NCBI RefSeq assembly: GCF_002973595.1
Contig: NZ_PVEO01000005.1
Span: 62,001 to 126,000 of the forward strand
Direction: 5' to 3'
Length of the DNA stretch: 64,000 bases
Origin: Jejuia pallidilutea
GTDB lineage: Bacteria; Bacteroidota; Bacteroidia; Flavobacteriales; Flavobacteriaceae
Shown: in pieces, positions 8,497 through 43,593 of the stretch
How the letters are laid out: the number at the start of each line of letters is the position of its first letter
Position numbering within the stretch: the stretch's first letter is position 1
Position numbers and translations under genes: made by a program
Notes under the pieces: generated by a model
Seen by the model: only the letters and a program-made list of their open reading frames with translations
The model's database searches: none
Told to the model about the DNA's origin: nothing

Positions 8497-8889
8497 GGGG
8501 TCGACTGGTTTTGACAGCGAGATTAATTAAACGGTAAGCACGTCGTGTAATGGTTTTGAGACACGTAAAAGGCTAGACCAAACTTTAAACGGCGAGAATA
8601 ACTACGCTTTAGCTGCATAATCTGAATTATAGTAAGATTCGTGCTAGTTCCTACTAGGTAGGAAGGCTAAATGTCTCCAGAAAGCCTTGGTTAGTGGCGT
8701 TCTTTTTAGAGGCATCGTAAAAATTAACTAAGATGTGGTAGCGCTTTGATGCCACATCGAGATTTAAAAGCTAAGTTATAAGTAGGTTGTCTTTAGCCAG
8801 CTTATAATCGAAAAAACAAGAAAAGACTAAACGTGTAGAACCCCCTTTGGTTACTTGTTTGGACGAGAGTTCGATTCTCTCCGACTCCA
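8497..8889 (+). ncRNA. ssrA: Transfer-messenger RNA (tmRNA)
   Basis: tmRNA rescues stalled ribosomes by adding a degradation tag. The 5' end GGGGTCG (8497-8503) pairs with CGACTCC near the 3' end (8882-8888), and the T-arm GAGAG-TTCGATT-CTCTC precedes it. The early motif ACTGGTTTTGACA is typical of tmRNA. The tag frame GGC-GAG-...-GCA TAA at 8591-8620 encodes GENNYALAA. Discriminator A is at 8889 and CCA is not encoded. The final bases form the left attachment repeat of the genomic island, which leaves the gene intact. Confidence 0.97.
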
Positions 8890-8890
8890 C
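8875..8890 (+). other. Left attachment site (attL) of the island
   Basis: TTCTCTCCGACTCCAC is the 3' part of the T-arm and acceptor strand of ssrA. An exact copy lies at 43578-43593. The flanking bases differ on both sides, so the identity is limited to these 16 bases. Confidence 0.85.
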
Positions 8891-8913
8891 TTTTAGAGTA
8901 TCAAAACTCTTCA

Positions 8914-8946
8914 AAAACCCTGTAAATTTATGATTTACTGGGTTTT
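8914..8946 (+). terminator. Rho-independent terminator after ssrA (island side)
   Basis: AAAACCC(T)GTAAAT / loop TTATG / ATTTAC(T)GGGTTTT forms a 13-bp stem with one T-T mismatch, 24 bases after the tmRNA end. It lies on the island side of attL, so the island supplies a replacement terminator for ssrA. Confidence 0.7.
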
Positions 8947-8990
8947 ACATTTTATATAATATCATATAATATCATTTAAAATCATCTCCA

Positions 8991-9010
8991 TCGAGACCAA
9001 TTCGGTTACC
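8991..9010 (+). repeat. Terminal 20-bp repeat, left copy (putative integrase arm site)
   Basis: TCGAGACCAATTCGGTTACC, 19 of 20 identical to 43500-43519, lies 100 bases inside attL. The shared core CGAGACC also occurs in the inverted pair at 9031 and 9126. Confidence 0.7.
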
Positions 9011-9030
9011 CCTTTTGAATTTTACAAATA

Positions 9031-9040
9031 GGTCTCGCTA
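9031..9040 (-). promoter_or_regulatory. GCGAGACC site, inverted (putative recombinase or regulator site)
   Basis: GGTCTCGCTA is the reverse complement of TAGCGAGACC at 9126-9135. The pair brackets the region upstream of the integrase gene. Confidence 0.45.
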
Positions 9041-9125
9041 AGCACAATATTTTACTGATTTTCAATAGTTTACAATATTTACAACTTAGGTTATTTAATA
9101 TTAATTTACTACCTTTTTAGTGAAT

Positions 9126-9135
9126 TAGCGAGACC
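9126..9135 (+). promoter_or_regulatory. GCGAGACC site, direct, just before the integrase gene
   Basis: TAGCGAGACC ends 16 bases before the integrase ATG and forms a 10-bp inverted repeat with 9031-9040. Binding here could couple integrase expression to the state of the att region. Confidence 0.45.
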
Positions 9136-9151
9136 TAAAAACTATATAATT

Positions 9152-10390
9152 ATGAAAACAGACTTTTCTATCCATTTTCACTTAGTCAATTCTAAGATAA
9201 ATACTAGAGGCTTAGCACCTATTTATCTTCGGCTTACAGTTGACAATAAGCGCACTGAATACAGCATTAGTAGAAGGATTGAGCCAAAATTTTGGAATAC
9301 TAAATCCCAGAAAGTTATGGGTACAAATCGTGAGGCTGTCGAAATTAATAACCACATTGATAATTTAAAACATAAGCTATATAAAATTCATCAAAGATGC
9401 ATGGACGAGAATAATTTGATATCTGCCAAGTCTATGATGAATCTTTTAAAAGGTGGTGGAAAGAAAATTAGATTTATTCTTGAAGTATTCAAAGCACATA
9501 ATGAAAGAACCGATTTATTGGCAGGAAAAGACATTTCTATAAGTACTGCAAAACGATATTGGACTTGTTATGACCATGTGAAACAATTTATTGAAGAAGA
9601 ATATAAATTGGAAGATTATAAGCTAAAAGATATTGATTATAAGTTTATTATGAAGTTTGAGTTCTTTTTAAAAACGGTTAGGAAATGTAACCACAATTCG
9701 TCTTTAAAATATATTAATAACTTCAAAAAAATCATTCGTATCGCTTTAGCAAACCAATGGATGGATGTAGACCCTTTTTACAACTATAAAGTAAAATTTG
9801 AAGCTGTAGAAAGAGAATTTTTGACTGCCGAAGAAATAGAAACTTTATACAATAAAGAATTACATTTTGATAGGCTGAAAGTGGTTAGAGATATGTTTGT
9901 GTTTTCTTGTTATACAGGTCTTGCCTATTCCGACGTGGAAAAACTTTCAAAATCAGATATTACCATTGGCATTGATGGTAAGCAATGGATAAATATTAAA
10001 CGCACCAAAACAAATACGCGAAGTAGTATTCCGTTATTACCCATAGCAAAAGAGATTTTAAGTCGTTATGCTTACGATCCAAAAGTTATAAAAAGTGAGC
10101 GTTTAATTCCAGTCTTTAGCAATCAAAAATCTAATGCTTATTTAAAAGAAATAGCGATGCTCTGCGGCATCACAAAACCACTAACTACACATTTAGCGCG
10201 ACATACTTTTGCAACTACTGTAACCTTGACTAATGGAGTACCTATTGAAACCGTTAGTAAAATGCTTGGTCATAAATCATTAAGAACTACACAACATTAT
10301 GCAAAAATAGTAGACCGTAAAGTTAGCGATGATATGAATATTCTTGAAGAGAAACTGAAAACCCAAAGAAAAGACCAAAAAGAAAACTAA
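9152..10390 (+). CDS. Tyrosine recombinase / site-specific integrase of the island
   Basis: A 412-residue Bacteroidetes-type integrase with an N-terminal arm-DNA-binding domain (about 1-95, with GLAPIYLRLTVDNKRTEYS), a core-binding SAM-like domain (about 105-205) and a C-terminal catalytic domain (about 222-395). Catalytic positions seen are Lys286 (KRTKTNTR), His347 and Arg350 (THLARHTFA), His374 (LGHKS) and Tyr383 (TTQHYAKI). The box I position that usually holds Arg reads TGLAYSDV, with Ala258; loss of this Arg is known in IntDOT-like integrases. It lies 260 bases from attL and is the likely enzyme for island integration at ssrA. Confidence 0.93.
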   Translation: MKTDFSIHFHLVNSKINTRGLAPIYLRLTVDNKRTEYSISRRIEPKFWNTKSQKVMGTNREAVEINNHIDNLKHKLYKIHQRCMDENNLISAKSMMNLLKGGGKKIRFILEVFKAHNERTDLLAGKDISISTAKRYWTCYDHVKQFIEEEYKLEDYKLKDIDYKFIMKFEFFLKTVRKCNHNSSLKYINNFKKIIRIALANQWMDVDPFYNYKVKFEAVEREFLTAEEIETLYNKELHFDRLKVVRDMFVFSCYTGLAYSDVEKLSKSDITIGIDGKQWINIKRTKTNTRSSIPLLPIAKEILSRYAYDPKVIKSERLIPVFSNQKSNAYLKEIAMLCGITKPLTTHLARHTFATTVTLTNGVPIETVSKMLGHKSLRTTQHYAKIVDRKVSDDMNILEEKLKTQRKDQKEN

Positions 10391-10819
10391 TAATATATTA
10401 AATTTTAAACCTCAAATTTATAGTGCTTTATACATTCATTAGTTTTGCTATTAAATGATTCATTTTGCGATTTGATAGGAACATACTCAAAATCGATACA
10501 ACCTCTGAACAAGTAGTGGACAAGTAGTAAACAAGTACTGGTACGTATATATAAACATTAACAAACAAAAGAAAACATTTATAAACTAAGCTAACAAAAA
10601 AATTAAAAATTATTTTTCTTTTTAAAAAAATATAAATTAATTATCTGGGTAAAAATGCAATTCAGAATCAAAAATGAGGCTGTTTACAAATGGTTTAATG
10701 AACTATCTCCTCATTCTGGATGAACTATCGTTTTAGGTCTTAAAAAATGATTTTAAAGTCCTTAAAATCAATAAAATAATAGTATTCATAGGCACTCTTA
10801 GTATTTAATGCTAATTGAT
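10391..10819. other. Non-coding gap after the integrase
   Basis: No convincing gene is seen. The stretch is very AT-rich and contains three 11-bp tandem repeats at 10508-10540, annotated separately. The rest shows poly-A/T runs only. Confidence 0.5.
10508..10540 (+). repeat. Three 11-bp tandem iterons (ACAAGTA core)
   Basis: AACAAGTAGTG, GACAAGTAGTA and AACAAGTACTG follow each other without a gap, at one helical turn per repeat. Such an array in phase with the helix is typical of a cooperative protein-binding site. On a mobile island it could serve an excisionase, a replication protein or a regulator; which one is unknown. Confidence 0.5.
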
Positions 10820-11275
10820 TTAATTTGGTGTTTTCTCTCCGTTATTTAAATCTCTGTTGTCTTTTTTAAACTGAAATTCATTTCTTTCTTGAAGTTTCAG
10901 TTTAAACTCTTTATTTATTCTTTCTCGTTCTAACTCTTCAAAACTTTTCTCAATTAATATTTTTGGCTTTGGCTCAACATTCATAAAAAGAGATTGCAAC
11001 ATTGCTAAAGTCGGTTTGGTTTGATTCTTTTCTATATTTTTTATGATAGCTATAACCGCATTAATTCTTTTCTTAATTCGATTTTCAGTTTCCATTAGTC
11101 CTGGTTTTAAATCATCTTCTGGAGAAAGTTCATTACGCTCAAAAAATTCTACCATTAAAAGTAAAGTCATTGAGTTTGATTTTGAAATTGATTTGGAATA
11201 TTTTCTAAATTTCTTCACTACAGAACGCTTTATACTCAAGCTTTCAAAACGCTCTTTTTCATATCCTTTATCCAT
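10820..11275 (-). CDS. BfmA/BtgA-like mobilization protein
   Basis: A 151-residue basic protein. The segment SIKRSVVKKFRKYSKSISKSNSMTLLLMVEFFERN, followed by IKKRINAVIAIIKNIEKNQTKPTLAMLQSLF, matches what I know of the BfmA/BtgA mobilization family of Bacteroidetes elements, which carry a ribbon-helix-helix-like DNA-binding start and a helical middle. The C-terminal third is highly charged and coiled-coil-like (FEELERERINKEFKLKLQERNEF). In complete elements such proteins assist a relaxase at oriT. Here no relaxase follows, so it is probably a remnant or part of an element mobilised in trans. Confidence 0.7.
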   Translation of the reverse strand: MDKGYEKERFESLSIKRSVVKKFRKYSKSISKSNSMTLLLMVEFFERNELSPEDDLKPGLMETENRIKKRINAVIAIIKNIEKNQTKPTLAMLQSLFMNVEPKPKILIEKSFEELERERINKEFKLKLQERNEFQFKKDNRDLNNGEKTPN

Positions 11276-11788
11276 TTTTCCTTTTCTTTTGGTATTGATT
11301 TCTATGTGCTTTAATAATTACTAGGTTTATTTGTAGTAAAATGATATAGATAGCGTTTATTTGAATTTCATTCACTTATTCGTATAGCGTCATCGCCATA
11401 ATCTTTTCGGCAACTGAAATTAAATTTTGAAAGTGTAAGAACTCATAAAGTGAATGAGCAAAGGGTTTTGCAGTTCGTCTCGAGCAGAATTATAAACTTT
11501 TTGTAAAAAATGTTGTGGTATCTTTTAATTTGGTGAACGCTTTCTTTTTTCTGATACTGGGTTCAAGGCAGCTAAGTGAAACGCTTTTCTCATAATCAAA
11601 CTTTTCGTGAAATGTAGAGGAATGGGGTGGAACGATTTATGAAAATTTAATGTAAATGACCATAAAAATACAATTATTACTTATCCTGATTAAGATTGAA
11701 ACTGATTCCAATAAATACAAACAGATTCAATTTTAATAAATTTTCGAGGTATATGTAAATATTACTTTTTCTTAAAAATTTACCAATA
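11276..11788. other. Non-coding gap, possible oriT-like region
   Basis: No gene is seen in 513 bases between the mobilization gene and the first GH30 gene. A 9-bp inverted repeat CATTCACTT (11369-11377) / AAGTGAATG (11448-11456) is the most visible structure, with a smaller CTCAT/ATGAG hairpin overlapping its right arm. Position next to a mobilization gene makes an oriT possible, but no nic motif could be recognised. Confidence 0.35.
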
Positions 11789-13573
11789 TTAATTTACAAC
11801 AAGAGCTCCTTTAGAGATAAGCTTATTGTTTTCTGAGAGCTTGTAGAAATAAATACCACTCAATAAATTATTCCTTTTAAGAGCAAACTCGCTCCCAACA
11901 ATATGTTCTAGCCGTTTCACCTCCTTTCCATTAACATCATAAAGGGTTAATATACCATCGTTGATAAAATTTGAAAGTTGAAATATGGTTTCGCCCGAAA
12001 ATGGAACTGTGTAAATTTTAAGCACTTGGTTTTTAACTAACCCTTCCTGAGATAAAGCTCCTGCAATATCAATAACAAAAGTAGAGATAGAATATGCTGG
12101 TGCATTATATGATATGTTTTTACCGTTTAATATTCCTTTTTCAGTAATTGACACAATGGTTTTCTCTGTGGTATCTTCTCCTAAGCCAGAAACACCCCCT
12201 GACGTTCTATAGGTTTTAAAATCATTAATAACTGGAAAATTACTTAAATCAAAATTATAAGTTGTAGCAGTATCATAGGGATTAACCACTACTAAAACCA
12301 CCTCTCCATCGTCTGGACTTAAAGCTGCCAAAGTATTACCATTGTTTGATCTGATAATTTGATATCCTACTTTTATAAAATTAGTCACATTTTTTCGGCA
12401 ATAGAAACCTCGCGTTTTATTTAAAATTGGTGTATTGTAGGGATTGTTTTCATTCCAGTTGGTTTGGTGCAGCATACCCCATCCATCATCAATAGACATA
12501 AGCTGCCAATCGCACCAAACTGTAGATTTTAAATTGCGCATGTCCTCTATTAAGCGATAAGCCATGTCGTAATGCCTTATCCACCAATCTGTTTTACCAG
12601 GTGGTAAATTCCAGCCCAAAGGCCCTGTTTCGGTTTGCCAAACAGGTTTGTTTCCGTTGCTTTTGGCAAACGCTGCTAAATTTGCCTTGTCTTGCCATGT
12701 CCCACTATAACTATGAGTATTAATTTTGGCTATACCATTATATTCATTAGGATTATTATTTTTAATATCAGTTAGATTAGATAAAGCCCATGTTACTTTA
12801 GAATTGTCAGCAGCCGCTATTTTAATATTAGAAATACCATAAGCATTTTTTCTTTGCCATAAACGCCATAACACTTGAGCCTGTGTAGCTGCGTATATGG
12901 CAGAACCCTCTTGATTTCCACCTTTTTTCCAATACCCAGATATGGGTTCATTAAAAGGCTCAATGTATTGGATGTTCCAAGATGGATATGAGGTGTTTAA
13001 ACCTGAAGCCACAGAAGCCAAATAATCGGCAAAATCATCTACAAATTCTGGCTTAAGGTTTTCTGAGGTTCCACTAACATTACCAGCAGAGCACTCCCCA
13101 TGGGTCATCCACCAAGGCGGCGAATACGATATTAGTTCTGTAATAATATCGTTTTTAGAAGCTCTTAAGGTTGCCAACTTATCCATAACAATAATTTGTC
13201 GTAAATCATTCGATAAATTATAAGTACCCCAACCTTCGTTATTATTTTGAAGATTTCTATACCCAGGCATTTTAGCTCCATCCCTTCTAAAATGATCTCC
13301 ACTTGTACAATTGGGGTTTTCTCCACCTCCAATATTAAATCTGAATACATTAAAATTTAAATCATTGACCGCATAATCAGCCAATTCATCTATCGTTGAT
13401 TGAGGCATACCTCCGACAAGATTAGCCCACCAAGCTAATGACACGCCCCAACCTTCAACACTTTGATATTTTGTTTCAGGAAATAAAGTAACCGTAGTTT
13501 GCCCGTAAAAATCGGTACAGAAATTCGATAGTGTAAGTGTTAATATAAGCTTGACTTTAATAAGTTTTTTCAT
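11789..13573 (-). CDS. Secreted GH30 glycoside hydrolase with T9SS sorting domain (GH30_5-like, beta-1,6-galactanase type)
   Basis: A 594-residue protein with a signal peptide (about 1-24, ending DFYGQ), a GH30 TIM barrel plus beta-domain (about 28-500), and a C-terminal type IX secretion sorting domain (about 515-594, with LYDVNGKEVKRL and LLSGIYFYKL). Catalytic residues are clear: acid/base Glu209 in IEPFNEP and nucleophile Glu315 in WQTETG. The VEGWGVSLAWWANLVGG start and SYSPPWWMTHGECSAG segment resemble subfamily 5, which includes endo-beta-1,6-galactanases. It is the last PUL gene, separated from the others by a terminator-like hairpin, and is probably exported to the surface. Exact linkage is inferred. 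Confidence 0.88.
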   Translation of the reverse strand: MKKLIKVKLILTLTLSNFCTDFYGQTTVTLFPETKYQSVEGWGVSLAWWANLVGGMPQSTIDELADYAVNDLNFNVFRFNIGGGENPNCTSGDHFRRDGAKMPGYRNLQNNNEGWGTYNLSNDLRQIIVMDKLATLRASKNDIITELISYSPPWWMTHGECSAGNVSGTSENLKPEFVDDFADYLASVASGLNTSYPSWNIQYIEPFNEPISGYWKKGGNQEGSAIYAATQAQVLWRLWQRKNAYGISNIKIAAADNSKVTWALSNLTDIKNNNPNEYNGIAKINTHSYSGTWQDKANLAAFAKSNGNKPVWQTETGPLGWNLPPGKTDWWIRHYDMAYRLIEDMRNLKSTVWCDWQLMSIDDGWGMLHQTNWNENNPYNTPILNKTRGFYCRKNVTNFIKVGYQIIRSNNGNTLAALSPDDGEVVLVVVNPYDTATTYNFDLSNFPVINDFKTYRTSGGVSGLGEDTTEKTIVSITEKGILNGKNISYNAPAYSISTFVIDIAGALSQEGLVKNQVLKIYTVPFSGETIFQLSNFINDGILTLYDVNGKEVKRLEHIVGSEFALKRNNLLSGIYFYKLSENNKLISKGALVVN

Positions 13574-13732: not shown

Positions 13733-14563
13733 CTACTGCTTCATTAGTCGTTTAGTAACTGAATTTCCCTTGTCATCAGTAATTCTTACCATGTATAATC
13801 CTGAAGACATATTACTTATATCGTAGGTGTTTCTACTTATTTCATTAGCGCTTTTAACGATTGTTTTTCCTAATAAATCGTAAAAAGAAATGTTTGCTAT
13901 TTTTGTGTTATTATCAGTTTTTATTTGGAATGTAGATTTTACTGGATTAGGAAAAACCGAAATAGAATTTTCAAATTCAAACTTAGTATTACTAAGTGTT
14001 GGTGTGCTACTGCTGCTAAAAGTAAATTCATCTACATAACCAAATAAACTTGTATTGTTTAGCACTAAACCAACAGGATCATTTTGAAATCCAATATCGC
14101 CATGCATTAAAATAGCATTAACAGTTAAACCCGAAGCACCACCATCCACCTCAAAAACCATATCCTGCCACTCGCCAAAGTTAGTATAGTCATTAGAAGA
14201 TCTAACTACCACACTACCGTCATTAGAGCTATCAGTTGCATCAAAACGCACACCAAGATCTGGTTGAGCAGGATAGTTTACCAAAACATGTAAGTATCTT
14301 TTTTCTCCTGCTGGAACATTGTAAGGCACGGCAAGATCAAAGGCGATAAGCTCATACCATAGCGAAGTAGTTCTTCCTATTCTACCACAATTTGTAGTAG
14401 TGTTACCTGTTGTATTTGGATTAGCAACTACTGAAAAAGTTGTTCCGTAACGAACTACCGTTGCTGGAGCACCAGTTTCAAAATCGTTAATCTCAGTTTG
14501 CCCAAAAACCGAACAAACGCTACAGAGTACTGCAAAACATAAAAAAGTAATTTTTTTAATCAT
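13733..14563 (-). CDS. Secreted T9SS-sorted protein with beta-sandwich (CBM-like) domain
   Basis: A 276-residue protein with a signal peptide (about 1-21, VCSVFGQ), an all-beta domain (about 22-180, beginning INDFETGAPATVVRYG and ending GYVDEFTFSS) and a type IX sorting domain (about 200-276, FENSISVFPNPVKSTFQI ... LYMVRITDDKGNSVTKRLMKQ). The N-terminal domain looks like a jelly-roll glycan-binding module, judging by its ...YVDEF ending, but no catalytic motif is seen. It may bind the target polysaccharide at the cell surface. Family assignment is uncertain. Confidence 0.7.
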   Translation of the reverse strand: MIKKITFLCFAVLCSVCSVFGQTEINDFETGAPATVVRYGTTFSVVANPNTTGNTTTNCGRIGRTTSLWYELIAFDLAVPYNVPAGEKRYLHVLVNYPAQPDLGVRFDATDSSNDGSVVVRSSNDYTNFGEWQDMVFEVDGGASGLTVNAILMHGDIGFQNDPVGLVLNNTSLFGYVDEFTFSSSSTPTLSNTKFEFENSISVFPNPVKSTFQIKTDNNTKIANISFYDLLGKTIVKSANEISRNTYDISNMSSGLYMVRITDDKGNSVTKRLMKQ

Positions 14564-14683: not shown

Positions 14684-17479
14684 TTAATTATAAATATCTT
14701 TTGTAGAAAAACCATTTTGTTTTTTGTTAAGCTCCAAATCATTTAAACTTTTGATTTTTAATGTTTTAGACGGTGTAAAATTTGTACCCTCCATATACTG
14801 CAACAAACTGTGACGCAATTGTCTAGCCACGGGTCTTTTATCTAAATCTGAAGTGATATCTATGGAAGAAAACACTAAATTTCCTTTGCCACATTTCGCT
14901 TCAAAAACATTAGCCAAATGGTGGTTCGTTACAAAGTTATCTATAACGCGAACTATAGGTGTTACTTCTAAAGAATCTGTAATTATTGATTTAGAATTTA
15001 TACATAAATCCCACCATTGCCAATCGGAATGTGTACTGGTTGGAAAACTATTAAACGCAGGGTGATTATCATCTAGTAAAACGCCCATAGTTGCAGGCTG
15101 ATTAGGAAAATGTACAGGACTCCAAAATACGGGTACAAAACGACCTTCAATACCACTTAATGTTTTAGGGTCGGGGCTTAGCAATACTTTTTTTCCTTCG
15201 TTTAACATTTTTAAAGCTGAATCGAAAGAATTAGTTATCTCTATATCTTTTGCAGTAATGCTTACATTTTTAGGATACACCCAAATATGCCAACTGTTTT
15301 TATAAGGTGAATCTTGTAATGCCACTTTTATTGTTAACTTTTTGGCCTCATTAGTTACAATGGGAAAATTTATTGTTCCTAAATTGGTGTTGTGCCCTAT
15401 TTTAAGATTTACATTTTTAATACTTCCGTTTTTAAGGATATGCCCTGATTCGTCAGCTATTTCCCAATCTAAAACCTGATTTGTTTTTGGTTCAAAAAAA
15501 TTAGCAATTTCAATAGCAGCTTCAAACGTTTCTTCTGTTTCATATACTGCTTTTTCAAAACGAATTAATGGGACAAGTTCACTATTAAATTGTCTGAATT
15601 CTTCAGCAGAAATTACACCTTTAGATTCCCAAAATGCATTTAACAAACCTACCAATGCTGTTCCTTGTCCAGGGAAATCCTGAAGCTGTAATAATTGAAA
15701 CCCATCAAAACTGGGGGTTTTTAAAGCTCTTTCTATTTCTTCCTTATATAATAAAGCGGCTAATTTTCCTGAATTATAAGTGAATTCTGGAGCTAAATCC
15801 AAAAGACCTTTTCTCTCTAAATCCTCTTTTACGGCAATAAAATTAAGTGGTTTTAAAACTCCTGTATATTTTTCGATTTCACTCATATCTGGATATACCG
15901 AATACTGGCCAATTTCGTGAGAAATTAAAGGTATTTTAATATGTGCGCTACCAGAAGTAAAGTCGGCATTAAAATGAGGAGGTTTACTATTAAAAACTCC
16001 TTGTCCTCGAATCCACCCCTTATCCGTCCATTGCGCTACAAAAAAATCATCTTCGGGCTCTGGTCTTGTTCCCATAGGTTGTTGGAACGAAAATGCCGTT
16101 GTAGCATATAAATGCCTGTTGTCTTTAGTTTTTAATTCTGCCACCATGTTATTAAGCACTTCAGCACTACCCTGAAGTTCATTGCCCATAGCCATTAACA
16201 CAAACGATGGATGATTACCATAATCATTAATAATTTTATGCGCTTCAGATCTTAAAAACTCATTAGTTGCAGTATCCTCTCCCACTTTTAAACTCCAATG
16301 TGGCAACTCTACTTGATAATAAAAACCTGCCTCATCCGCAGCCTCAAATGCTGCTTTTGGTGGACACCATGAATGGAATCGTAAATGATTTAAGCCATAA
16401 TTTTTTGCTTGTGCAATTAATTTTGCCCAAGCTTCCTTTTTCATTGGCGGACGACCTGTTAACGGAAAAATAACACACTCTAAATTTCCTCGAAGAAAAA
16501 TACGTTTACCATTTAATGATAAATTTGCATTGGTATTATTAATAGTTTTAAAACCAAACCTTGAAACTATTTCCCCAGAATTTGTTTGAATTTCAACGTC
16601 ATAAAGTGCGGGGTTGAACTCATCCCAATACTCCAAATTTTTAGGCTTTTGTATACTAAAACTTATTTTATTTCCTTGAATTTCAGAATTACTAATAGTT
16701 TCACTATACAACAAATCGCCTGATATTGATGTAATCTTACACTGTAAAGCTGTAACATTTGGCGTTTTTTGTTCAAAAGAAATTCTTAGGGATTCCCCAC
16801 CAGAATTTGGATAAATTTGTAAATTTTTTGGAGCATTATCCTCATGAGCATATAATGCAATATCACCTAAAATACCATTCCATTTTATTTGCGTGTGGTT
16901 GGTGTATGCATGTGCCATATCTTGATTCACCTTATCGGGATACTTTGTGCCAGCAACATTAATATTTGGAAATTTATTTGAATTATCTACACAAATGGTT
17001 AACAAATGTTTACCTGTTGAAATATATGAGGTTAAATCAAAAACATGATTACCCACAAGACTATTGGAAGTACCAACCAATTTTCCATCTATAAAAACTG
17101 AAGACTCCCAAATGATACGTTCGAGATTTAGGGTTATGGTTTTAGATGCCCAATCCTTAGGAATATTTACTTCCTTTTGATACCATGCTTTTCCTATATA
17201 TTGATGCTTTCTTGTAAGATTAGACATTACATAATTATTAATAGCTGGCTTAAGTTGGTTTGGTTTTCCTATGCCTGCTTCGTCTAATGTTGCAGGTAAA
17301 GCTATTTTATTACCCTCTATTTTTTTGGAGGCCCATTTCTGATTAAACCCTACTTCTGCAGAGTCTAATTTAACCGTCCACTCTCCAGATAAATCAAGTT
17401 TTGTCTCTGTTGCCTTTTCACAACTATTTAAAAAAACGAGTGTGAATAATGTGAGCCATAAAACACTTAATTGTTTCAT
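14684..17479 (-). CDS. GH2-family glycoside hydrolase, lipoprotein
   Basis: A 931-residue protein with a lipoprotein signal (VFLNSC, Cys20). It has a GH2 sugar-binding domain (about 28-215, LDLSGEWTVKLD ... WNGILGDIALYA), an immunoglobulin-like domain (about 216-315) and a TIM barrel (about 318-620). The acid/base is Glu434 in MGNELQG and the nucleophile Glu522 in ISHEIGQY. A long C-terminal region (about 640-920) of beta type follows, shared with the second GH2 at 24260. Substrate could be a beta-galactoside or a related residue of the target glycan; GH2 does not fix it. It is separated by 19 bases from the sulfatase upstream. Confidence 0.88.
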   Translation of the reverse strand: MKQLSVLWLTLFTLVFLNSCEKATETKLDLSGEWTVKLDSAEVGFNQKWASKKIEGNKIALPATLDEAGIGKPNQLKPAINNYVMSNLTRKHQYIGKAWYQKEVNIPKDWASKTITLNLERIIWESSVFIDGKLVGTSNSLVGNHVFDLTSYISTGKHLLTICVDNSNKFPNINVAGTKYPDKVNQDMAHAYTNHTQIKWNGILGDIALYAHEDNAPKNLQIYPNSGGESLRISFEQKTPNVTALQCKITSISGDLLYSETISNSEIQGNKISFSIQKPKNLEYWDEFNPALYDVEIQTNSGEIVSRFGFKTINNTNANLSLNGKRIFLRGNLECVIFPLTGRPPMKKEAWAKLIAQAKNYGLNHLRFHSWCPPKAAFEAADEAGFYYQVELPHWSLKVGEDTATNEFLRSEAHKIINDYGNHPSFVLMAMGNELQGSAEVLNNMVAELKTKDNRHLYATTAFSFQQPMGTRPEPEDDFFVAQWTDKGWIRGQGVFNSKPPHFNADFTSGSAHIKIPLISHEIGQYSVYPDMSEIEKYTGVLKPLNFIAVKEDLERKGLLDLAPEFTYNSGKLAALLYKEEIERALKTPSFDGFQLLQLQDFPGQGTALVGLLNAFWESKGVISAEEFRQFNSELVPLIRFEKAVYETEETFEAAIEIANFFEPKTNQVLDWEIADESGHILKNGSIKNVNLKIGHNTNLGTINFPIVTNEAKKLTIKVALQDSPYKNSWHIWVYPKNVSITAKDIEITNSFDSALKMLNEGKKVLLSPDPKTLSGIEGRFVPVFWSPVHFPNQPATMGVLLDDNHPAFNSFPTSTHSDWQWWDLCINSKSIITDSLEVTPIVRVIDNFVTNHHLANVFEAKCGKGNLVFSSIDITSDLDKRPVARQLRHSLLQYMEGTNFTPSKTLKIKSLNDLELNKKQNGFSTKDIYN

Positions 17480-34242: not shown

Positions 34243-34262
34243 TTCTTTTTTTGTTATAAAAA

Positions 34263-35843: not shown

Positions 35844-35849
35844 GATTTT

Positions 35850-38800
35850 TTATAGTGTTAAATTAAGTCCTAGTAAATATGTTTTGGTTATTGGATTTCT
35901 TGCGTAATCCACACCAAAATCATTAATAACATTTCCTCCTGCTGCCACTTCTGGATCGAAACCAGAATAATTAGTTATGGTGATAAGGTTTTGTCCTGAC
36001 ACATATAGTCTACATTTTTGAAATCCTTTAATATTAAAATTGTAACCTAACTGAACGTTACGAAGCCTTAGATAAGAACCATCTTCAATGAACAAATCTG
36101 AAGGACGCAAATAGTTTCCATTTCTGTCTGTTTGTGTAAGTCTAGGAAAACTAGCTCCAGGATTTTCTGGAGACCAAACTTTATTTAAAGTGCCTGCTGC
36201 AACGTTTACGTCCTGTATACCAGAATATAAGAATGTTGTAGGATAGTTAAACACATCGTTACCAAATGTACCATACCATTGCATTGAAAAATCGAATTTC
36301 TTATAACTTAGGTTTGCTGTAAGTCCACCATAAAAATCGGCAAAAGGATCTCCCATTATTTGTAAATCCTCATCATTTAATTGCCCGTCTTCATTGGTAT
36401 CAACAAATCGTATGTCCCCTACTTGGGCATTTGGCTGTATAACAGTTCCATCTTCAGAAGTATGAGAATTTAACTCTGTTTGATTTTGAAAAATTCCATC
36501 TGTTTTAAACCCATAAAACAAACCAACAGTTTGTCCCACTTCAGTAATTTTAATAAACCTATTTCCCAAATCTTCTCTTTTTTGCCCTAATAGTTGTTCA
36601 TTACCAGGCGCCAAAGATTTAGCTTTACTCTCATTAGTAGAAACGTTAAGATTTAAACCTAATGTAAAATCTCCCATTTGTTTATTAAAGCCAACTTGAA
36701 AATCAAAACCTTCAGATTCAAAACTTCCAACGTTTTGTGCTACTAGACCAGGAACACCTGTATAATTAGGTAATTCTACATTAAATAATAAATCCTCTGA
36801 TGTTTTTTTATAGTATTCAACAGAAAAATCTAATGCATTATTGAACATACTCATCTCTAAACCAATATTTTGATCGCGTACTGTCTCCCATTGCAAATTG
36901 GTGTTACCAAATCTAGACAAGAAGTTAGTAACGACTCTATCTCCACCAAAAACATAATCGCCAGACCCTACTGAGAAGAATTGTCCCTCTCTACTTATAT
37001 TCTGATTTCCAACTTCACCTACCCCCACTTTTAAACGCATATTATTGATTTTCTCACTTTTGAAAAATTTCTCAGAATCAATATCCCAAGCAAAAGATAC
37101 ACTAGAAAAAATACCAGTTCTATTATCCTTAGGAAATCTAGAAGACTGATCTACCCTTACAGAACCAGTAACAAAATATTTATTATCAAATCCATAGATA
37201 GTTCTAAATATACCTGACAAAATATTGTCTGTTGCCTCGTTGCTATTTACCGAAATCCCTTCACCGACAGCGGCGTCTATGTACCACAAATCTGGATTTT
37301 CACTATCTGGAACACCCTCTCTAGAACCATTGATATAATTGAAGTGTTGGGAATCATATAAGATCCCTCCCAATACATTAAGATAATGTTTTTCGTTAAT
37401 GGTTTTAGTAAAGTTTATTGTATTATTTACAACATAGTCTATGTCCTGTCTCGTATTTCTAAAAACCCTATTTACCTCTCTTTGTTGATTGGGGTTTGTA
37501 AAATATTCTGGATTGAAAGCATCTGTTCCAGAATTAGATATGTTGAAACCAAACTGCGACGTAAACGTTAATTCTGGTGTAATTTTAAAATCAAGTTGCG
37601 TATTTGAGAAAAAACCAAAGAAAAAAGATTCATTAAAACTACGGGCTATACCACCGACCGGATTTGGCACATTATTATTACTAGCTTCATAAATACTGTA
37701 AATATTTCTACCTACACGTTCGCTTTGTGGCAAATATACTTCCGTTAATGGATCTATTCTTAGCAAACTGTACAAAGCACTAGGTGTGTTTTCCCAACGC
37801 TCTATTCTTGGACTTAAATCTTGTTTTAATTTTATTTTATCAGATATTTTAAAGTCTACATTAAAACGCCCCGTAACTCTTTGGTACCAGCCTTTCGTGT
37901 AGTTAGATTGCTGGTCGAAAAAACTTAAACTTCCTGCATAATTAATTTTTTCCGAACCGCCTGACGCTCTAATATTAGCATTAGTAATTGGTGCATAATC
38001 CTCTATTACTTCTTCCCACCAATCCGTATCTGTATTGAAATCATCCGCATTGTAAAGAGGGGCGTTTCCATCGTTAGTTCTTCTTAAATTAGTTACAGCA
38101 ATATATTCATCTGCACCTGCCATTTGAATTTTTTCTAATTGCTGCATACCATAAGATACATCTACATCTATGGTTGTTTTACCTTCCTTACCTCTTTTTG
38201 TCGTAATTAAAACTACGCCATTGGATGCTCTAGAGCCGTAAATTGCAGATGCAGATGCATCTTTAAGTATTTGAAAACTTTCTATATCAGCAGGATTTAA
38301 AAAGTTTAAAGATGTTCCGCTAGGAAGCATTACCCCATCAATTACAATTAAGGGTTGACTTCCATTGTTTGTAGTAATACCCCGAACCAGTATTTGAGGT
38401 GAAGCACCAGGACTTCCCCCAGAAGAAAGTACTTGCACTCCTGCTGCCTTTCCCTGTAAAGCTTCTGCTGGGTTACTGGCTACCATTTTGGTAAGTTCCT
38501 CTCCATCTACAGTAGATATAGAACTTGTAATTTTATCTCTTTTAACCGCCCCATAACCTATAACAACAACTTCATCTAATTGCGCATTATCTGTTTGTAA
38601 CACCAAAGAAATATTTGTTCTGCCTGCTACTTGTATTTCTTGAGTTTTATAGCCTACGTAACTAAATGCTAAAGTTGCATTTGCACCCACATTGATAGAA
38701 TAGCCGCCATCAAAATCAGACACAGCACCATTAGTGGTATTTTTCTCCAGAATATTTACTCCAGGAATAGGCTGACCCTCTTCATCAGTTATGGTTCCTG

Positions 38801-38870
38801 TAACTATATTTTGAGCTATTGTTGTAAAACTAATTAGTAATAAGCTCAGTATTAATATTGAATGTTTCAT
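35850..38870 (-). CDS. susC: SusC/RagA-family TonB-dependent outer-membrane transporter
   Basis: A 1006-residue TonB-dependent transporter with signal peptide (about 1-19), a CarboxypepD_reg-like domain (about 20-105, VTGTITDEEGQPIPGVNI), a TonB box and plug (about 98-225, DEVVVIGYGAVKRD, LQGKAAGVQV, LKDASASAIYGSRASNGVVLITTK) and a 22-strand barrel ending in an aromatic-poor LGLNLTL. It imports oligosaccharides across the outer membrane with SusD. The N-terminal domain is of the standard SusC kind; no SusC-like signalling (STN) domain is seen, so control is through AraC rather than anti-sigma. Confidence 0.96.
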   Translation of the reverse strand: MKHSILILSLLLISFTTIAQNIVTGTITDEEGQPIPGVNILEKNTTNGAVSDFDGGYSINVGANATLAFSYVGYKTQEIQVAGRTNISLVLQTDNAQLDEVVVIGYGAVKRDKITSSISTVDGEELTKMVASNPAEALQGKAAGVQVLSSGGSPGASPQILVRGITTNNGSQPLIVIDGVMLPSGTSLNFLNPADIESFQILKDASASAIYGSRASNGVVLITTKRGKEGKTTIDVDVSYGMQQLEKIQMAGADEYIAVTNLRRTNDGNAPLYNADDFNTDTDWWEEVIEDYAPITNANIRASGGSEKINYAGSLSFFDQQSNYTKGWYQRVTGRFNVDFKISDKIKLKQDLSPRIERWENTPSALYSLLRIDPLTEVYLPQSERVGRNIYSIYEASNNNVPNPVGGIARSFNESFFFGFFSNTQLDFKITPELTFTSQFGFNISNSGTDAFNPEYFTNPNQQREVNRVFRNTRQDIDYVVNNTINFTKTINEKHYLNVLGGILYDSQHFNYINGSREGVPDSENPDLWYIDAAVGEGISVNSNEATDNILSGIFRTIYGFDNKYFVTGSVRVDQSSRFPKDNRTGIFSSVSFAWDIDSEKFFKSEKINNMRLKVGVGEVGNQNISREGQFFSVGSGDYVFGGDRVVTNFLSRFGNTNLQWETVRDQNIGLEMSMFNNALDFSVEYYKKTSEDLLFNVELPNYTGVPGLVAQNVGSFESEGFDFQVGFNKQMGDFTLGLNLNVSTNESKAKSLAPGNEQLLGQKREDLGNRFIKITEVGQTVGLFYGFKTDGIFQNQTELNSHTSEDGTVIQPNAQVGDIRFVDTNEDGQLNDEDLQIMGDPFADFYGGLTANLSYKKFDFSMQWYGTFGNDVFNYPTTFLYSGIQDVNVAAGTLNKVWSPENPGASFPRLTQTDRNGNYLRPSDLFIEDGSYLRLRNVQLGYNFNIKGFQKCRLYVSGQNLITITNYSGFDPEVAAGGNVINDFGVDYARNPITKTYLLGLNLTL

Positions 38871-38907: not shown

Positions 38908-40320
38908 CTATCTACTAATTGCAGAAATTCTATTCAAATGGGTATCGAAAACAAAAGTGTAATCTTTACCTAAAGCAGAATCTGGAAAAATGTAGTTAGT
39001 TCCTCCGTTAGGCACAGTGGACTGAGGAGATGTAGGATCATCAATCCTCCAAAACGGTGACCACCCATCTGGATTCGCATTTAGAATAAAACCATTATTA
39101 CCATCATTATTTGGCTCATCATCAATAGTAACATCTATAGTCCATAAATACGGGTTGTTGCTATCTTGAGTAAACGGTTTTCCCGATCTAAAGTTCCAAC
39201 ACATTAAGCTACCGTCGATATTAGAAGTACATGTAGACGTATCTCCAACAAATATACCAGTGCCAATAATATACACTTGATCAAAAGCAGTATCGTTAGG
39301 AGAATATGGTGTTACAATATAGGTTTGATCCCGTAAATCCATTGTAATTTCATAATAACCCATATTTGGCAAAACTATGGGGCTTACCGTAGCATCTGTA
39401 CCCAATACTAATTTTCCAGAAACGTTTGGGTCTGCACCAAAGGCATAAGGCTCAAAAGATTCTTTTTGAGGTATAAACCGAACCTCTGTATTTGCAGTTG
39501 GAGCATAAAATCTAGCTGTAAATACATACCCGTCTTCACCTATTTCCGAACTAGCGGTTGTAGTATAAGGCACTCCAAAAATATCTGAAACTAAACCAGC
39601 ATTATCAGCGACATCTGTTACATACATTACATCAAATAGTAGCTCGTTAAGAATATTCACATTAACAGTCTGTGAGGCTTCGTTTCCTGAAACATCAGTA
39701 GCTGTAACTTTAAAAGAATAGTTACCTGCCGTATCAACATTTATGCTATTAGTGTAAGTGTAGGAAGTTCCCGTAACAGCAAAAACCTCAGTAAGGATAC
39801 TACTCTCAATTTTGAATTCTGCTAACTCAGCATCCGTTACCGTTATATTAAAATCGACTTCGTTTCCTGACCCAATTAGTATAGTAGCTCCATTTATTGG
39901 ACTAGTAATTTGTATTTCTGGACTTGCAATATCCTGATCTAAAGTTATGACCACATTCTCAACAGTTGATTTACCTCCAACATTAGTGAATGTAATAGGT
40001 ATTGTATGCACACTATTTTCTTGCTCATCTTCTGGGACTTTGAATTTGTAAGATAAATTATAGGATTCTGGAAGAGAATCTTTTACTATGGTTTTATCCA
40101 AAAACCATGGCTCGTATTTAATATTTACAGATTGAATACCCGCAGGATCGGACACAACACCCGTAAAAGTAAACGTTTGCCCCGGTAGAGAAGAAATCTC
40201 CCTTTCTAATGTTTGAACTTCTGGAATGGAATCCACACTTATGGAATCGTCATTATCACAATTAACTATTAATGCAAACACACTAATAATAAGTAATAAT
40301 TTTACTTTAATTGTTTTCAT
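38908..40320 (-). CDS. Surface glycan-binding lipoprotein (SusE/SusF-like position)
   Basis: A 470-residue lipoprotein (lipobox Cys21, LIVNC). It has two Ig-like or cadherin-like beta domains (about 35-130 and 130-225, with SPEIQITSPINGATI and NVDTAGNYSFKVTATDVSGNEAS) and a C-terminal region (about 230-470) with SusE/F-like binding features (VYIIGTGIFVGD, NPYLWTIDVTIDD, GWSPFWRIDD). It is the first gene of the minus-strand PUL transcript, directly before susC, and probably binds the polysaccharide at the surface. Confidence 0.8.
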   Translation of the reverse strand: MKTIKVKLLLIISVFALIVNCDNDDSISVDSIPEVQTLEREISSLPGQTFTFTGVVSDPAGIQSVNIKYEPWFLDKTIVKDSLPESYNLSYKFKVPEDEQENSVHTIPITFTNVGGKSTVENVVITLDQDIASPEIQITSPINGATILIGSGNEVDFNITVTDAELAEFKIESSILTEVFAVTGTSYTYTNSINVDTAGNYSFKVTATDVSGNEASQTVNVNILNELLFDVMYVTDVADNAGLVSDIFGVPYTTTASSEIGEDGYVFTARFYAPTANTEVRFIPQKESFEPYAFGADPNVSGKLVLGTDATVSPIVLPNMGYYEITMDLRDQTYIVTPYSPNDTAFDQVYIIGTGIFVGDTSTCTSNIDGSLMCWNFRSGKPFTQDSNNPYLWTIDVTIDDEPNNDGNNGFILNANPDGWSPFWRIDDPTSPQSTVPNGGTNYIFPDSALGKDYTFVFDTHLNRISAISR

Positions 40321-40707: not shown

Positions 40708-41595
40708 ATGGACTCAATAACAGTAAAAGAAGGATTTCTTGGTCAAAAAATGATTGCATTCCCCAAATCCATCATTAATGTTATGAAAAATAACGACATC
40801 ACTAAGAAGTTTTACATAAGTGATTTAGGGTACTACCCAATGGCACACAACCATTATCGTTTCAGAAAAAAAGGTGCTGATGAATATATTTTTATTTATT
40901 GCACAAAGGGAAAAGGTGAAATTATTTTAAACGACGCTAAGACTGAAATTACCCCTAATCAACTTTTTATAATCCCTAGAAAAGTGAAACATGAATATAA
41001 AGCAGACCTCTTAGACCCATGGAGCATTTATTGGTTTCATTTCAATGGTACAATTGCTCCTGAATTGTACAACAGGTATATCACTACAAAATACAATAAT
41101 TATAGAGATGTATCTTTTTCAAATGACAAAATTGACTTATTTGAAAAAATATTTAATTTATTCAACAAAAACTATCTAGAAAAACAAATAGAATACGCCA
41201 ATATACTTAGTTTAGGCCTCATAAGTTCGTTTGTATATCATGATTTTGATTCTAGTGCGCAAACCAACCAACACGACACATTGGTAGACCAAGTAAAAAA
41301 TTTTTTATTAAATAGCCTGGAAACAAATTTTACTCTAAGTGATATTGCTAATAAATTTAATTATTCTAAATCTTACCTACACACTAAGTTCAAAACAGAA
41401 ACTGGTTATTCAATAATGGTTTTTTTTAATTTAAAAAAAATACAAAAAGCTTGTGAATACCTAAATTACACTGACTTAAGCATCAAGGAAATAAGCTTTA
41501 AAACTGGGTTTGATGACCCTTTATACTTTTCAAGATTGTTTAAAAACTTTATGGGAAAATCCCCTAGAAACTATAGGCAAAGTAAAAGGAAATAA
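40708..41595 (+). CDS. AraC-family transcriptional regulator of the PUL
   Basis: A 295-residue regulator with an N-terminal cupin-like sensor (about 40-135, EYIFIYCTKGKGEIIL ... LFIIPRKVKHEYKA ... PWSIYWFHFNG) and a C-terminal AraC DNA-binding domain (about 190-292) with two helix-turn-helix motifs (FTLSDIANKFNYSKSYLHTKFKTETG and LSIKEISFKTGFDDPLYFSRLFKNFMGKSPRNYR). It is divergent from the SusE/susC operon and is likely its sugar-responsive activator. It ends about 950 bases before the next gene. Confidence 0.92.
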   Translation: MDSITVKEGFLGQKMIAFPKSIINVMKNNDITKKFYISDLGYYPMAHNHYRFRKKGADEYIFIYCTKGKGEIILNDAKTEITPNQLFIIPRKVKHEYKADLLDPWSIYWFHFNGTIAPELYNRYITTKYNNYRDVSFSNDKIDLFEKIFNLFNKNYLEKQIEYANILSLGLISSFVYHDFDSSAQTNQHDTLVDQVKNFLLNSLETNFTLSDIANKFNYSKSYLHTKFKTETGYSIMVFFNLKKIQKACEYLNYTDLSIKEISFKTGFDDPLYFSRLFKNFMGKSPRNYRQSKRK

Positions 41596-42490
41596 CTTAT
41601 TACCCTGTTAATATATCAACACATCGCCACGTCATTTTACTTTAAAAAACTAACTTCAACTAAAACCATCCTCAATGACAAGTGCTAAAACAGAATTAAA
41701 GAGGGAATAATTGTACATAACTAAATTTTGAGAAGCATAACAAGCCATTAAAAATCTTTAAAAGTGAGAATTTGGATAGTTTCACTTTATTAAACTCTTT
41801 ATTCATTTTTTCAGAAAAAAATCATTGATTTTACCGCCTTATAAGGGTTTTTTCAGAAAAAAATGTTACATATACTAATTCCACAAACACTAATTGACTA
41901 TAAACCAACAACTTGAAAAATGTAACATCGCGAAGCGTGTTACCCTCTTGCTATACATTTTTTTTCGATACATCTTCAAAAAATCCATACTTGAATTTAA
42001 GATAATTTACTAATCGAATCAAACACTAGAATCATAAGAATTTAAAAATCTACAATCCCAACTCTTAAATCACATTAACTTAATCCAACATATGATTGCA
42101 TTATTGTTAAAATCATTTACTTATTATATCTTGAACGTTTTCCTTTTTCTTCTATCTTATTTAGTAGAATTTTCAAAAGAAAATAAATATTAGGTAAAAC
42201 CCTAGTAGTTCATTAACTCATTTACTTCCCATAGCGCCCTCACTGTTACCTTTTCCAAATTAATAATCCTGAAATTTGAAGCTCATAAAGATTTATAAAA
42301 AGCGTGAGGAACGAGCCTGATTATGCAATCTGTTGAGAAACAAATTTCATAGCTTTTAATGGAAAAGTTAATAAGGAAACAACTAAGATGTTATTTCCCA
42401 CTTTAATATGAATTAAAAATCAATTTGGTGGTTACTAAAAAGAGAGTCTTTAATTTAAAGTTTAAATTAAGTGCTCTAAAGAATCCGCAC
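41596..42490. other. Long non-coding AT-rich stretch in the island
   Basis: No reliable gene is seen in about 900 bases. A 17-nt sequence TTTTTTCAGAAAAAAAT occurs twice (41807-41823 and 41849-41865), 42 bases apart. The rest is AT-rich with many stops in all frames, consistent with decayed DNA near the right end of the island. Confidence 0.45.
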
Positions 42491-42526
42491 AAAAGCCTGT
42501 AAACTAAAAATCACAGGCTTTTTTTG
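42491..42526. terminator. Bidirectional hairpin terminator before the M16 fragment
   Basis: AAAAGCCTGT / loop 12 / ACAGGCTTTT is a perfect 10-bp stem followed by T residues, with A residues on the other side. It lies downstream of the broken M16 gene and may be its original terminator. Confidence 0.75.
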
Positions 42527-42551
42527 GTTAATTTTATTTATAAGAATGATT

Positions 42552-43159
42552 TTATTGCTTAACAAAACTTTCTGGAACTAATATAAATTCTGCATAGTTG
42601 CTCATATCAAAGTAAGTATTCGCAGCATCTTGAAACATTTTTGAGTTGATTTTATTAATATCTGCTTTATAATCTAAAATAGATTCAGGACTTATGCCGT
42701 ATTGGCAGGCATCTTTTAATTTATACATCCAATAGCCGTTTATTTCTATATACTCTTCGGCATTGGCTAATTCTGCTTCCTTGATTTTATTGAGGTCTTC
42801 TTTGGTAGCGCCATTGGCTTTGATTTTATTGATTTCCTCAAAAACCTTGTTTATTAATTTTTCTACGTTATCGGGGTCGCAAGGAAACCTAACATTCAAT
42901 CGACACCAATTGTAAGGCCTATCGGAAGCAAAGCCAGAAACTCGCACACCATAAACACCTGCCATTTTTTCACGCATCTCTTCAGTTAATTTAATTTTTA
43001 ACAATTTACCTAATAAGTTGAGTTTCTTTTGTTCTTCAAGAGAGAAATCTAGAGTACCCGTAAAACGCATATCCACCTGACTTTTATCGTCAACGCCCTT
43101 TACAATAGTTTCCTTTATTTTTCCGTTGGTATAGCGTAATCCAATATCGCTCCAAGCGC
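42552..43159 (-). pseudogene. C-terminal fragment of an M16 (pitrilysin/insulinase) zinc peptidase
   Basis: About 200 residues of the C-terminal M16 domain are readable on the minus strand: IGLRYTNGKIKETIVKGVDDKSQV before the ATG at 43076, then MRFTGTLDFSLEEQKKLNLLGKLLKIKLTEEMREKMAGVYGVRVSGFASDRP. The frame ends at a TAA next to SAW at about 43159 and the rest of the peptidase is absent; the zinc-binding HxxEH half is missing. Family members are about 900 residues. The gene ends exactly where the ECF fragment on the other strand begins, pointing to a recombination joint. Confidence 0.8.
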
Positions 43160-43162
43160 TTT

Positions 43163-43413
43163 AAAACCTACCACCAAAGTGTAAACAAACATTTTTATTG
43201 AGCAAACAAGAACGACTAACAAATATTGAAATTGCTGAGTATTTAAACATATCTATAAAAACTGTTGAAGCGCATATTATTAAAGCATTCTCTATTATCC
43301 GTAAAAGAGCAGGTAATAAAACCAACAATATTATATTTTTACTTTTTAGAAAAAACAAAGAAATTTTTTATTTGGGTAACTGGATCATCAATATAAGACT
43401 CTTCTCATCCTAA
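43163..43413 (+). pseudogene. C-terminal fragment of an ECF sigma factor (sigma region 4)
   Basis: The frame reads LPPKCKQTFLLSKQERLTNIEIAEYLNISIKTVEAHIIKAFSIIRKRAGN, the sigma-4 helix-turn-helix of a Bacteroidetes ECF sigma factor, including the PPKC motif that begins this region. An in-frame TAA stands just upstream and sigma region 2 is missing. The distal part (FLLFRKNKEIFYLGN) is unlike typical ends. It starts a few bases from the break of the M16 fragment. Confidence 0.75.
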
Positions 43414-43499
43414 GAATTAATCTATATGGTAAACATATTTTGGTATAGTTTGGAATGTTTTGACCTGACCTAAAAATAAAACTGTTAAAGTTTGTTAAA

Positions 43500-43519
43500 T
43501 CGAGACCAATTCGGTGACC
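43500..43519 (+). repeat. Terminal 20-bp repeat, right copy (putative integrase arm site)
   Basis: TCGAGACCAATTCGGTGACC matches 8991-9010 at 19 of 20 positions and lies 59 bases inside the right attachment repeat. In a circular form both copies would flank the joined att core. Confidence 0.7.
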
Positions 43520-43577
43520 ACTAAAAACAACACCATTTGGAAGCCCTGTAAACATAAGTAAGATGAAATTATGGTCG

Positions 43578-43593
43578 TTCTCTCCGACTCCAC
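43578..43593 (+). other. Right attachment site (attR) of the island
   Basis: TTCTCTCCGACTCCAC is identical to the end of ssrA at 8875-8890. The tmRNA sequence before the T-loop is not present here, so this is a partial 3'-end copy, as expected for an att site. Confidence 0.85.

Follow-up and report, generated by a model that had tools for sequence, protein, structure and literature searches.

A polysaccharide utilization island at the 3' end of ssrA in Jejuia pallidilutea and its likely composite origin

A 64,000-nucleotide stretch of the genome of Jejuia pallidilutea (RefSeq assembly GCF_002973595.1, contig NZ_PVEO01000005.1, positions 62,001 to 126,000 of the forward strand; hereafter the window) was analyzed around ssrA, the gene encoding the transfer-messenger RNA (tmRNA). 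Very probably, a 34.7-kb composite island carrying a polysaccharide utilization locus (PUL) occupies the 3' end of this gene, having been integrated there by its own tyrosine recombinase, and it likely originated from a tandem of two related elements followed by a deletion. Coordinates are positions in the window, which contains no undetermined bases; the genome comprises 4,110,363 bases in 34 contigs.

Ends of the island, its integrase and its PUL

The ssrA gene is intact, and its last 16 bases, TTCTCTCCGACTCCAC, form the core of the left attachment site (attL) and recur as an exact copy at the right attachment site (attR). This combination of an intact tmRNA gene and its 3' fragment, repeated directly at the far end, is the anatomy of a tmRNA-integrated island. 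No third copy of the core was found in the window at up to three mismatches (0.10 expected), and the two copies are the only pair in the 4,110,363-base genome at up to one mismatch, where about 0.0008 copies are expected from the base composition. A second repeat, TCGAGACCAATTCGGT[T/G]ACC, lies inside both ends, its two copies being identical at 19 of 20 positions. Given their fixed distance from each end, these inner repeats are probably arm sites bound by the Arm-DNA-bind_5 domain of the integrase. Terminator-like hairpins, judged by eye and unscored, were observed 3' of both att copies.

The integrase gene beside the left end has a reading frame without internal stops, and its product contains the three domains of the family together with the motifs TGLAYSD at residue 255, HLARH at 347 and HYAKI at 382. 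The first catalytic arginine is missing, as it likewise is from the Bacteroides integrase IntDOT. Relatives were sought in 397 genomes of the family; a match at E 1e-60 or better was obtained in 169 of them, and the best 30 loci were examined. Among these, all 16 loci with 64-100% identity (the window counted) lay directly 3' of a tmRNA gene, while the 14 loci with 52-56% identity were divided between tmRNA (4) and tRNA-Ser(TGA) (10). In a tree built from all 30 loci, the ten tRNA-Ser loci grouped together with a support of 0.995. A tyrosine integrase beside one end, with relatives at the same target, is again what characterizes an island of this type.

The PUL spans 11789-41595, between the two att repeats. 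It combines a SusC/SusD pair, carbohydrate-active enzymes and a regulator, which is the content expected of a PUL, and a similar gene order was found in other genomes. The matches of its sulfatases and of its enzymes of glycoside hydrolase family 2 (GH2), which are below cut-off or distant, suggest a sulfated beta-galactan as the substrate.

Most of this anatomy had been put forward in a sequence-only reading of the same DNA, and the parts concerned held up: the exact 16-bp repeat at the end of ssrA and at 43578, the tyrosine recombinase next to the left end, the 19/20 repeat inside both ends, a terminator on each side (as far as hairpins can be judged by eye) and, by domain content from SusC/SusD to AraC, the sulfatase/GH30 PUL between the repeats. 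That reading did not describe the bfmA gene (10820-11275), the truncated element backbone (41797-42400) or the fused gene fragments (42571-43410).

Sibling islands at ssrA

Twenty integrase loci at ssrA, the window counted, were read over longer stretches. In nine of them (G354, G427, G065, G299, G151, G290, G402, G382 and G029) there was no far end in the stretch, those of G354 and G427 stopping at a contig end. Eight loci had integrases 74-95% identical to that of the window, and the far end was visible in six of these, delimiting islands of 41.3 kb (G159), 30.8 kb (G070), 17.0 kb (G171), 39.9 kb (G242), 23.7 kb (G181) and 23.9 kb (G360). The 116-bp spacing between the attL core start and the inner repeat was the same as in the window in five siblings (G159, G070, G171, G242 and G181), and the 78-bp spacing between the inner repeat and the attR core start was the same in all six; G360 shares this right spacing only. 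The 110-130 bp at the right end of the six siblings were 76-86% identical to those of the window, and the siblings sharing both spacings carry other cargo. Integration of the island at ssrA, also part of the sequence-only reading, was thus borne out by both ends, in spacing as well as in sequence. A chance repeat was rejected, since the pair is unique in the genome and its spacings are repeated in sibling islands.

Position 3 of the attR core is G in the six siblings and C in ssrA, and strand exchange therefore likely takes place 3' of that base. Both copies in the window have C.

G070 and G171, which belong to different genera, match in two blocks: one of 9.0 kb at 99.1% identity, which begins with ssrA and extends into the island, and one of 8.4 kb at 99.95%. 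The blocks are parted by a 13.8-kb stretch present in G070 only. The gene upstream of ssrA is 69.9% identical between the two. The window integrase is 95% identical to that of G159, and the gene upstream of ssrA 80%. The element family evidently moves between genera, as judged from these sequence comparisons. No SusC/SusD relatives were found in the islands of G070 and G171, so their near-identity is evidence for the vehicle and not for the PUL of the window.

The island belongs to an ssrA-specific element family of the Flavobacteriaceae with constant ends and integrase, often with bfmA, and with variable cargo. The bfmA gene was present in six of the nine islands with integrases at least 74% identical (the window counted); the three without a match were G181, G354 and G427, the last two read over stretches of 5.5 and 9 kb. 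The 430 bp between the integrase gene and bfmA (10391-10820) are 81-84% identical in four siblings and contain no open reading frame (ORF) of 80 amino acids or more, which makes this gap a candidate origin of transfer or regulatory region.

Additionally, G159 has another tmRNA-like gene 3.9 kb beyond attR (L138:7762-8173), which scored weakly (49.3 bits against a cut-off of 47); it was not called by ARAGORN and is perhaps a decayed or displaced ssrA copy. In G003, from the same genus as the window, a second near-exact att core lies 4.3 kb after ssrA (L034, 4834-9153), and this suggests a small ssrA island in that genus. By eye, two proteins of this candidate island resemble a pair in the G070 and G171 islands, which we take to be HipA-like.

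Table 1. Features of the ssrA island of J. pallidilutea and of its right flank (positions in the window).
Feature	Position	Strand	Remarks
ssrA (tmRNA), intact, integration target	8497-8890	+	ARAGORN; Rfam RF00023, 146.9 bits
attL, 16-bp core TTCTCTCCGACTCCAC, last 16 bases of ssrA	8875-8890	+	
Element left end with terminator-like hairpin, common to sibling islands	8891-9150	+	
Inner repeat copy 1, TCGAGACCAATTCGGT[T/G]ACC	8991-9010	+	116 bp from attL core start
Tyrosine recombinase, ssrA-specific group	9152-10390	+	Arm-DNA-bind_5, Phage_int_SAM_5 and Phage_integrase domains
BfmA/BtgA family mobilization protein	10820-11275	-	NF041200, 102.4 bits (cut-off 24)
Element backbone segment, G360 type	11276-11560	.	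81.5% identical; directly upstream of bfmA
Protein with type IX secretion system (T9SS) sorting tail	11789-13573	-	70% homologue beside PUL in G186
T9SS-tailed protein	13733-14563	-	41-46% homologues beside PUL in G371 and G013
GH2 enzyme	14684-17479	-	Nearest NCBIfam model exo-beta-1,4-galactosidase BT4151, below cut-off
Sulfatase 1	17499-19388	-	
Sulfatase 2	19404-20912	-	
DUF5107-TPR protein	20919-24224	-	
GH2 enzyme	24260-27103	-	Nearest NCBIfam model exo-beta-1,4-galactosidase BT4151, below cut-off
GDSL-type esterase	27114-27869	-	
Major facilitator superfamily sugar transporter	27872-29272	-	
Sulfatase 3	29305-30912	-	Nearest structures: N-acetylgalactosamine 6-sulfate sulfatase, kappa-carrageenan S1_16 sulfatase
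GH30 enzyme a	30920-32539	-	
GH30 enzyme b	32608-34329	-	
SusD-like protein	34263-35843	-	
SusC-like TonB-dependent transporter	35850-38870	-	
SusE/F-like surface protein	38908-40320	-	
AraC-type regulator	40708-41595	+	
Second truncated element backbone, G070 type	41797-42400	.	81% identical; begins within first four codons of lost bfmA
M16 peptidase gene fragment	42552-43158	-	DNA homology 42571-43155
Fragment like 3' part of gene with sigma-70 region 4	43160-43410	+	Pfam matches just below cut-off; adjoins M16 fragment
Element right end	43470-43593	+	76-86% identical to six siblings
Inner repeat copy 2, TCGAGACCAATTCGGT[T/G]ACC	43500-43519	+	78 bp before attR core start
attR core, exact copy of TTCTCTCCGACTCCAC	43578-43593	+	
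DNA right of attR	43594-43650	+	43602-43650 matches DNA directly 3' of ssrA in same-genus G008
Lipocalin-like, OmpA-like and NlpE-like genes outside island	44118-46300	+	

Composite structure and alternative explanations

In G070, G171 and G242, the integrase-bfmA stretch runs on into about 600 bp of backbone. The window's copy of this backbone is displaced beyond the PUL, at 41797-42400, and a segment of the G360 type stands in its place upstream of bfmA. Two parts of the window, 11276-11560 and 42107-42420, match one and the same G360 segment with scores of 305 and 55 (shuffles about 20, 0/500 each), and three control pieces of the window scored at or below the shuffles. Therefore, one backbone region is present twice in the window, in copies from two lineages. 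Right of the second copy, the fused gene fragments occupy 42571-43410.

Stacking of family elements in tandem at ssrA is indicated by siblings that show left-end sequence after a second att copy: G396 (score 143), G017 (196) and G242 (50), with 0/100 shuffles each, the best of seven left ends being taken in this test. According to the proposed sequence of events, the recombinase would exchange strands in the core TCTCCGACTCCAC, which tmRNA gene and element have in common, so that ssrA stays whole; the anatomy is as observed and the reaction is predicted from it. Most likely, two family members became stacked at ssrA with the PUL on the ssrA-side member; the two elements would then have been fused by a deletion that started beyond the PUL and ended within the bfmA of the other member. 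Since attL, attR and the integrase are intact, excision as a single 34.7-kb circle would be possible.

Several observations weigh against this account of the island, and they are given here together with the alternatives. Direct comparison of the left and right backbone segments was barely above shuffles (11/300; an unrelated control gave 19/300), and thus their relation appears only through G360. In the tandem test, scores of 26-28 in G159 and in the window also reached 0/100 shuffles; the bar is therefore low, and G242 is the least sure of the three tandems. A possible but doubtful alternative for the composite is nested insertion, in which a block consisting of a G360-type backbone and the PUL would have entered a single G070-type element immediately upstream of bfmA. 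In its favor, the G070/G159 type is shared by the integrase, bfmA and the right backbone, which are contiguous in that type, and about 35 bp of G070 sequence is matched on both sides of the insert (11267-11301 and 41797-41831). However, these two 35-bp copies are only partly alike, which does not correspond to a fresh target duplication, no recombinase for such a block was seen, and tandems are indicated in siblings. Stacking followed by deletion explains the island most simply, nested insertion being its rival. A wider proposal, equally tentative, is that ssrA may serve as an assembly yard, in which integrase-bfmA elements stack, deletions fuse them, and PUL islands that keep the outer att sites and one integrase leave between genera.

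Regarding the cargo, the right end is defined in 11 islands (ten with both att copies, and G177 with a decayed right end), and SusC and SusD relatives were found inside four of these: the window, G242, G396 and G177. The SusC/SusD proteins of G242, G396 and G177 are 25-33% identical to those of the window. SusC or SusD relatives also lie 3' of ssrA in G151, G290 and G402, where the far end was not located. PULs are recurrent cargo of the ssrA element family. From how densely SusD genes occur in the 11 genomes, 1.2 such islands would be expected instead of four (P 0.036). The window was itself selected because of its PUL; without it, three of ten islands compare with 1.1 expected (P 0.10). An enrichment of PULs in the family was thus set aside as weak and, once the window is left out, non-significant. 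The PUL of the window was found in no other ssrA island.

Of the 397 genomes, 12 (that of the window counted) had a GH30 relative at E 1e-150 or better, and the PULs of nine of the other 11 were examined (G161 and G350 left out). Their gene order is mostly that of the window, with exceptions: G186 shows no SusC, SusD, SusE or second GH30; several sulfatase and GH2 genes are absent from G334 in the stretch read, and one sulfatase from G013; the sulfatases are at different positions in G251 and G428. An apparent extra gene between the GH30 genes of G006 is only a 38-residue match to GH30b. None of the nine had a tmRNA gene or an integrase relative (E 1e-5) nearby, nor an att core (up to two mismatches) or an inner repeat (up to three). 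Stretches of 40 kb were read at first and then more flank, which together covered at least about 28 kb past the AraC end and more than 20 kb past the other end in six genomes. In G410 they covered 20 kb on one side and 11 kb on the other, where the contig ends, and in G013 and G334 the whole 58-kb contig. That the window's PUL travelled on the ssrA vehicle is, therefore, an inference. In G334, a bfmA relative (49%) lies 17 kb from the AraC gene.

An unlikely alternative is that the PUL was not imported by this integrase, and that a resident or separately acquired PUL was captured by recombination into an ssrA element already integrated. The lack of element ends, integrase and tmRNA near all nine PUL relatives, the same-genus G006 among them, agrees with such a capture, as does the position of the PUL between pieces of two backbones. 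By contrast, the PUL of the window is separated from its Hyunsoonleella counterparts in an unrooted tree of nine joined proteins from 15 loci (13-15 per protein, with the overly distant L134 and L135 excluded). The window grouped with Zunongwangia, G251 and G428 (support 1.0), the H. flava and H. pacifica copies stood apart from it, and that of H. ulvae was elsewhere again, so the window's PUL was probably acquired separately from the Hyunsoonleella copies. No near-identical donor was found among the PUL relatives examined. Moreover, the PUL occupies the cargo position used by other members, three of whose islands hold unrelated SusC/SusD loci. The sequence-only reading had the whole degradation system acquired as a unit. 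Its residence in an ssrA island of a mobile family stands, and the tree fits a separate acquisition; acquisition as a single unit has to be qualified, since the island joins two elements and nine other PULs have no tmRNA, integrase relative or element ends in their vicinity.

The BfmA/BtgA match identifies a mobilization accessory protein, one of the marks of an integrative and mobilizable element (IME). Among the 19 island proteins scanned there was no relaxase, which a canonical IME has of its own, no conjugation apparatus, as required of an integrative and conjugative element, and no phage-type domain besides the integrase (PHROGs being outside the search). The whole genome gave no match to the relaxase PF03432, other relaxase families being outside this genome-wide search, and the earlier claim that the island gives a direct mechanism for PUL transfer was not sustained. 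Transfer of the island reconstructed above, if still occurring, would need helper functions in trans. Two divergent members do have relaxases, G361 within its island and G177, whose island is decayed, between the island ends; an origin of the family from IMEs is therefore probable.

Movement of the island by transduction or as a phage satellite, in the manner of Pseudomonas I55, seems improbable as an alternative to conjugative mobilization. Islands of the I55 type lie 3' of tmRNA with a tyrosine integrase, a 14-bp repeat and no transfer genes, according to the parts of the source drawn on here (PMC12595487), and the lack of a PF03432 relaxase in the genome also fits this explanation. Set against it are the bfmA genes and relaxases of the family. 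Integrase matches on 121 phage records were all below 60% identity, and a pattern scan of viral contigs gave no relative of the integrase. No match at 60% identity or more was obtained among 132 matching plasmid records either, and an origin of the element family in phages or plasmids was rejected on these grounds.

The right flank was compared with 11 same-genus ssrA stretches, which reach 5 to 16 kb downstream of ssrA. None of the 11 contained an integrase relative or a PUL gene above 38% identity. The match of about 50 bp between G008 and the DNA right of attR scored 44 (shuffles 17.4, 0/200), and the other ten stretches were negative or weak (best G003, 5/200). Relatives had been expected to lack the segment and to join ssrA directly to 43594. 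The integrase and PUL are indeed missing from the 11 stretches, but only one of them resembles the right junction, for about 50 bp, and no exact empty site was found in them. In G009, the closest relative by flanking identity, DNA homology ends at 8890 and resumes at 46563. None of the three genes at 44118-46300 had a match in the 11 stretches, and nothing above 34% identity to the lipocalin-like gene was found in the 11 genomes. A VPS10-like gene of about 1080 residues lies 3' of ssrA in five of the seven relatives with ORFs listed (the domain being taken from one), and its orthologue is absent from the J. pallidilutea genome (best 37%). Therefore, a second change occurred right of the island. 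Finally, the G+C content of the island (34.0%) does not contrast with that of the rest of the window (34.4%), and foreign base composition was rejected as a mark of the island. That repeat and integrase are coincidental in an ordinary stretch of chromosome would accord with this G+C content and with the missing empty site, but it is next to inconceivable for a repeat unique in 4.1 Mb, and is, in our view, already refuted by siblings that reproduce the ends and their spacings.

Some neighboring features were also recorded. Genes for a 2-keto-3-deoxygluconate (KDG) aldolase and kinase lie just right of the island (48475-50280) and 3' of ssrA in five same-genus genomes, and a pair 86-89% identical lies inside the G242 ssrA island; these genes are possibly former island cargo as well. 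Next to the right junction is a protein (46573-48297) whose length in genomes of the same genus ranges from about 500 to 785 residues, with repeated DNA matches, and which had no Pfam or NCBIfam match. A Bacteroid-trp leader RNA is located upstream of the trp operon (54402-54526).

Relation to known elements

Genomic islands integrated at tmRNA and tRNA genes, including tandems, are collected in the Islander database (PMC4383910), in the parts of that source used here. The present island shares with them the tyrosine integrase, the intact regenerated tmRNA gene and the displaced 3' fragment at the far end; unlike them, it represents a Flavobacteriaceae family with its own ends, has a PUL as cargo and is a composite of two lineages. 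The Pseudomonas islands I23, I44 and I55 likewise lie just 3' of tmRNA, with a short direct repeat, a tyrosine integrase and variable cargo, and likewise lack autonomous transfer genes. AlpA and defence cargo are present on them, and bfmA is not mentioned in the portions of the source considered, whereas the present island carries a PUL and bfmA. I55 was shown to be moved by a jumbo phage (PMC12595487). The Bacteroides elements NBU1 and Tn4555, as portrayed in the sections of PMC5704250 consulted, also combine a tyrosine integrase and mobilization genes without a conjugation apparatus; the present island differs from them in its bfmA, the absence of a detected relaxase and its target, ssrA. 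For gut Bacteroidetes, 47 SusC- and SusD-bearing PULs located on mobile elements have been described (PMC6907783, as far as covered here), and SusC/SusD loci are the cargo of integrase-bearing elements there as here. Those elements are from gut bacteria, and the word tmRNA is absent from the main text of that source.

Thus, tmRNA islands, phage-moved tmRNA islands, IMEs and PULs on gut mobile elements were already known, and the island belongs to that kind. No ssrA island with a PUL in Flavobacteria, and no such composite build, was among the literature matches listed, as seen in titles and abstract openings. To our knowledge, the movement of PULs between marine Bacteroidota has mostly been inferred from gene trees. 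The ssrA island of J. pallidilutea has base-exact ends and an intact integrase with a clear target, and its family includes near-identical sibling copies in two genera; excision, circle formation and transfer are therefore directly testable. Moreover, the mosaic of its backbone suggests how cargo islands are built.

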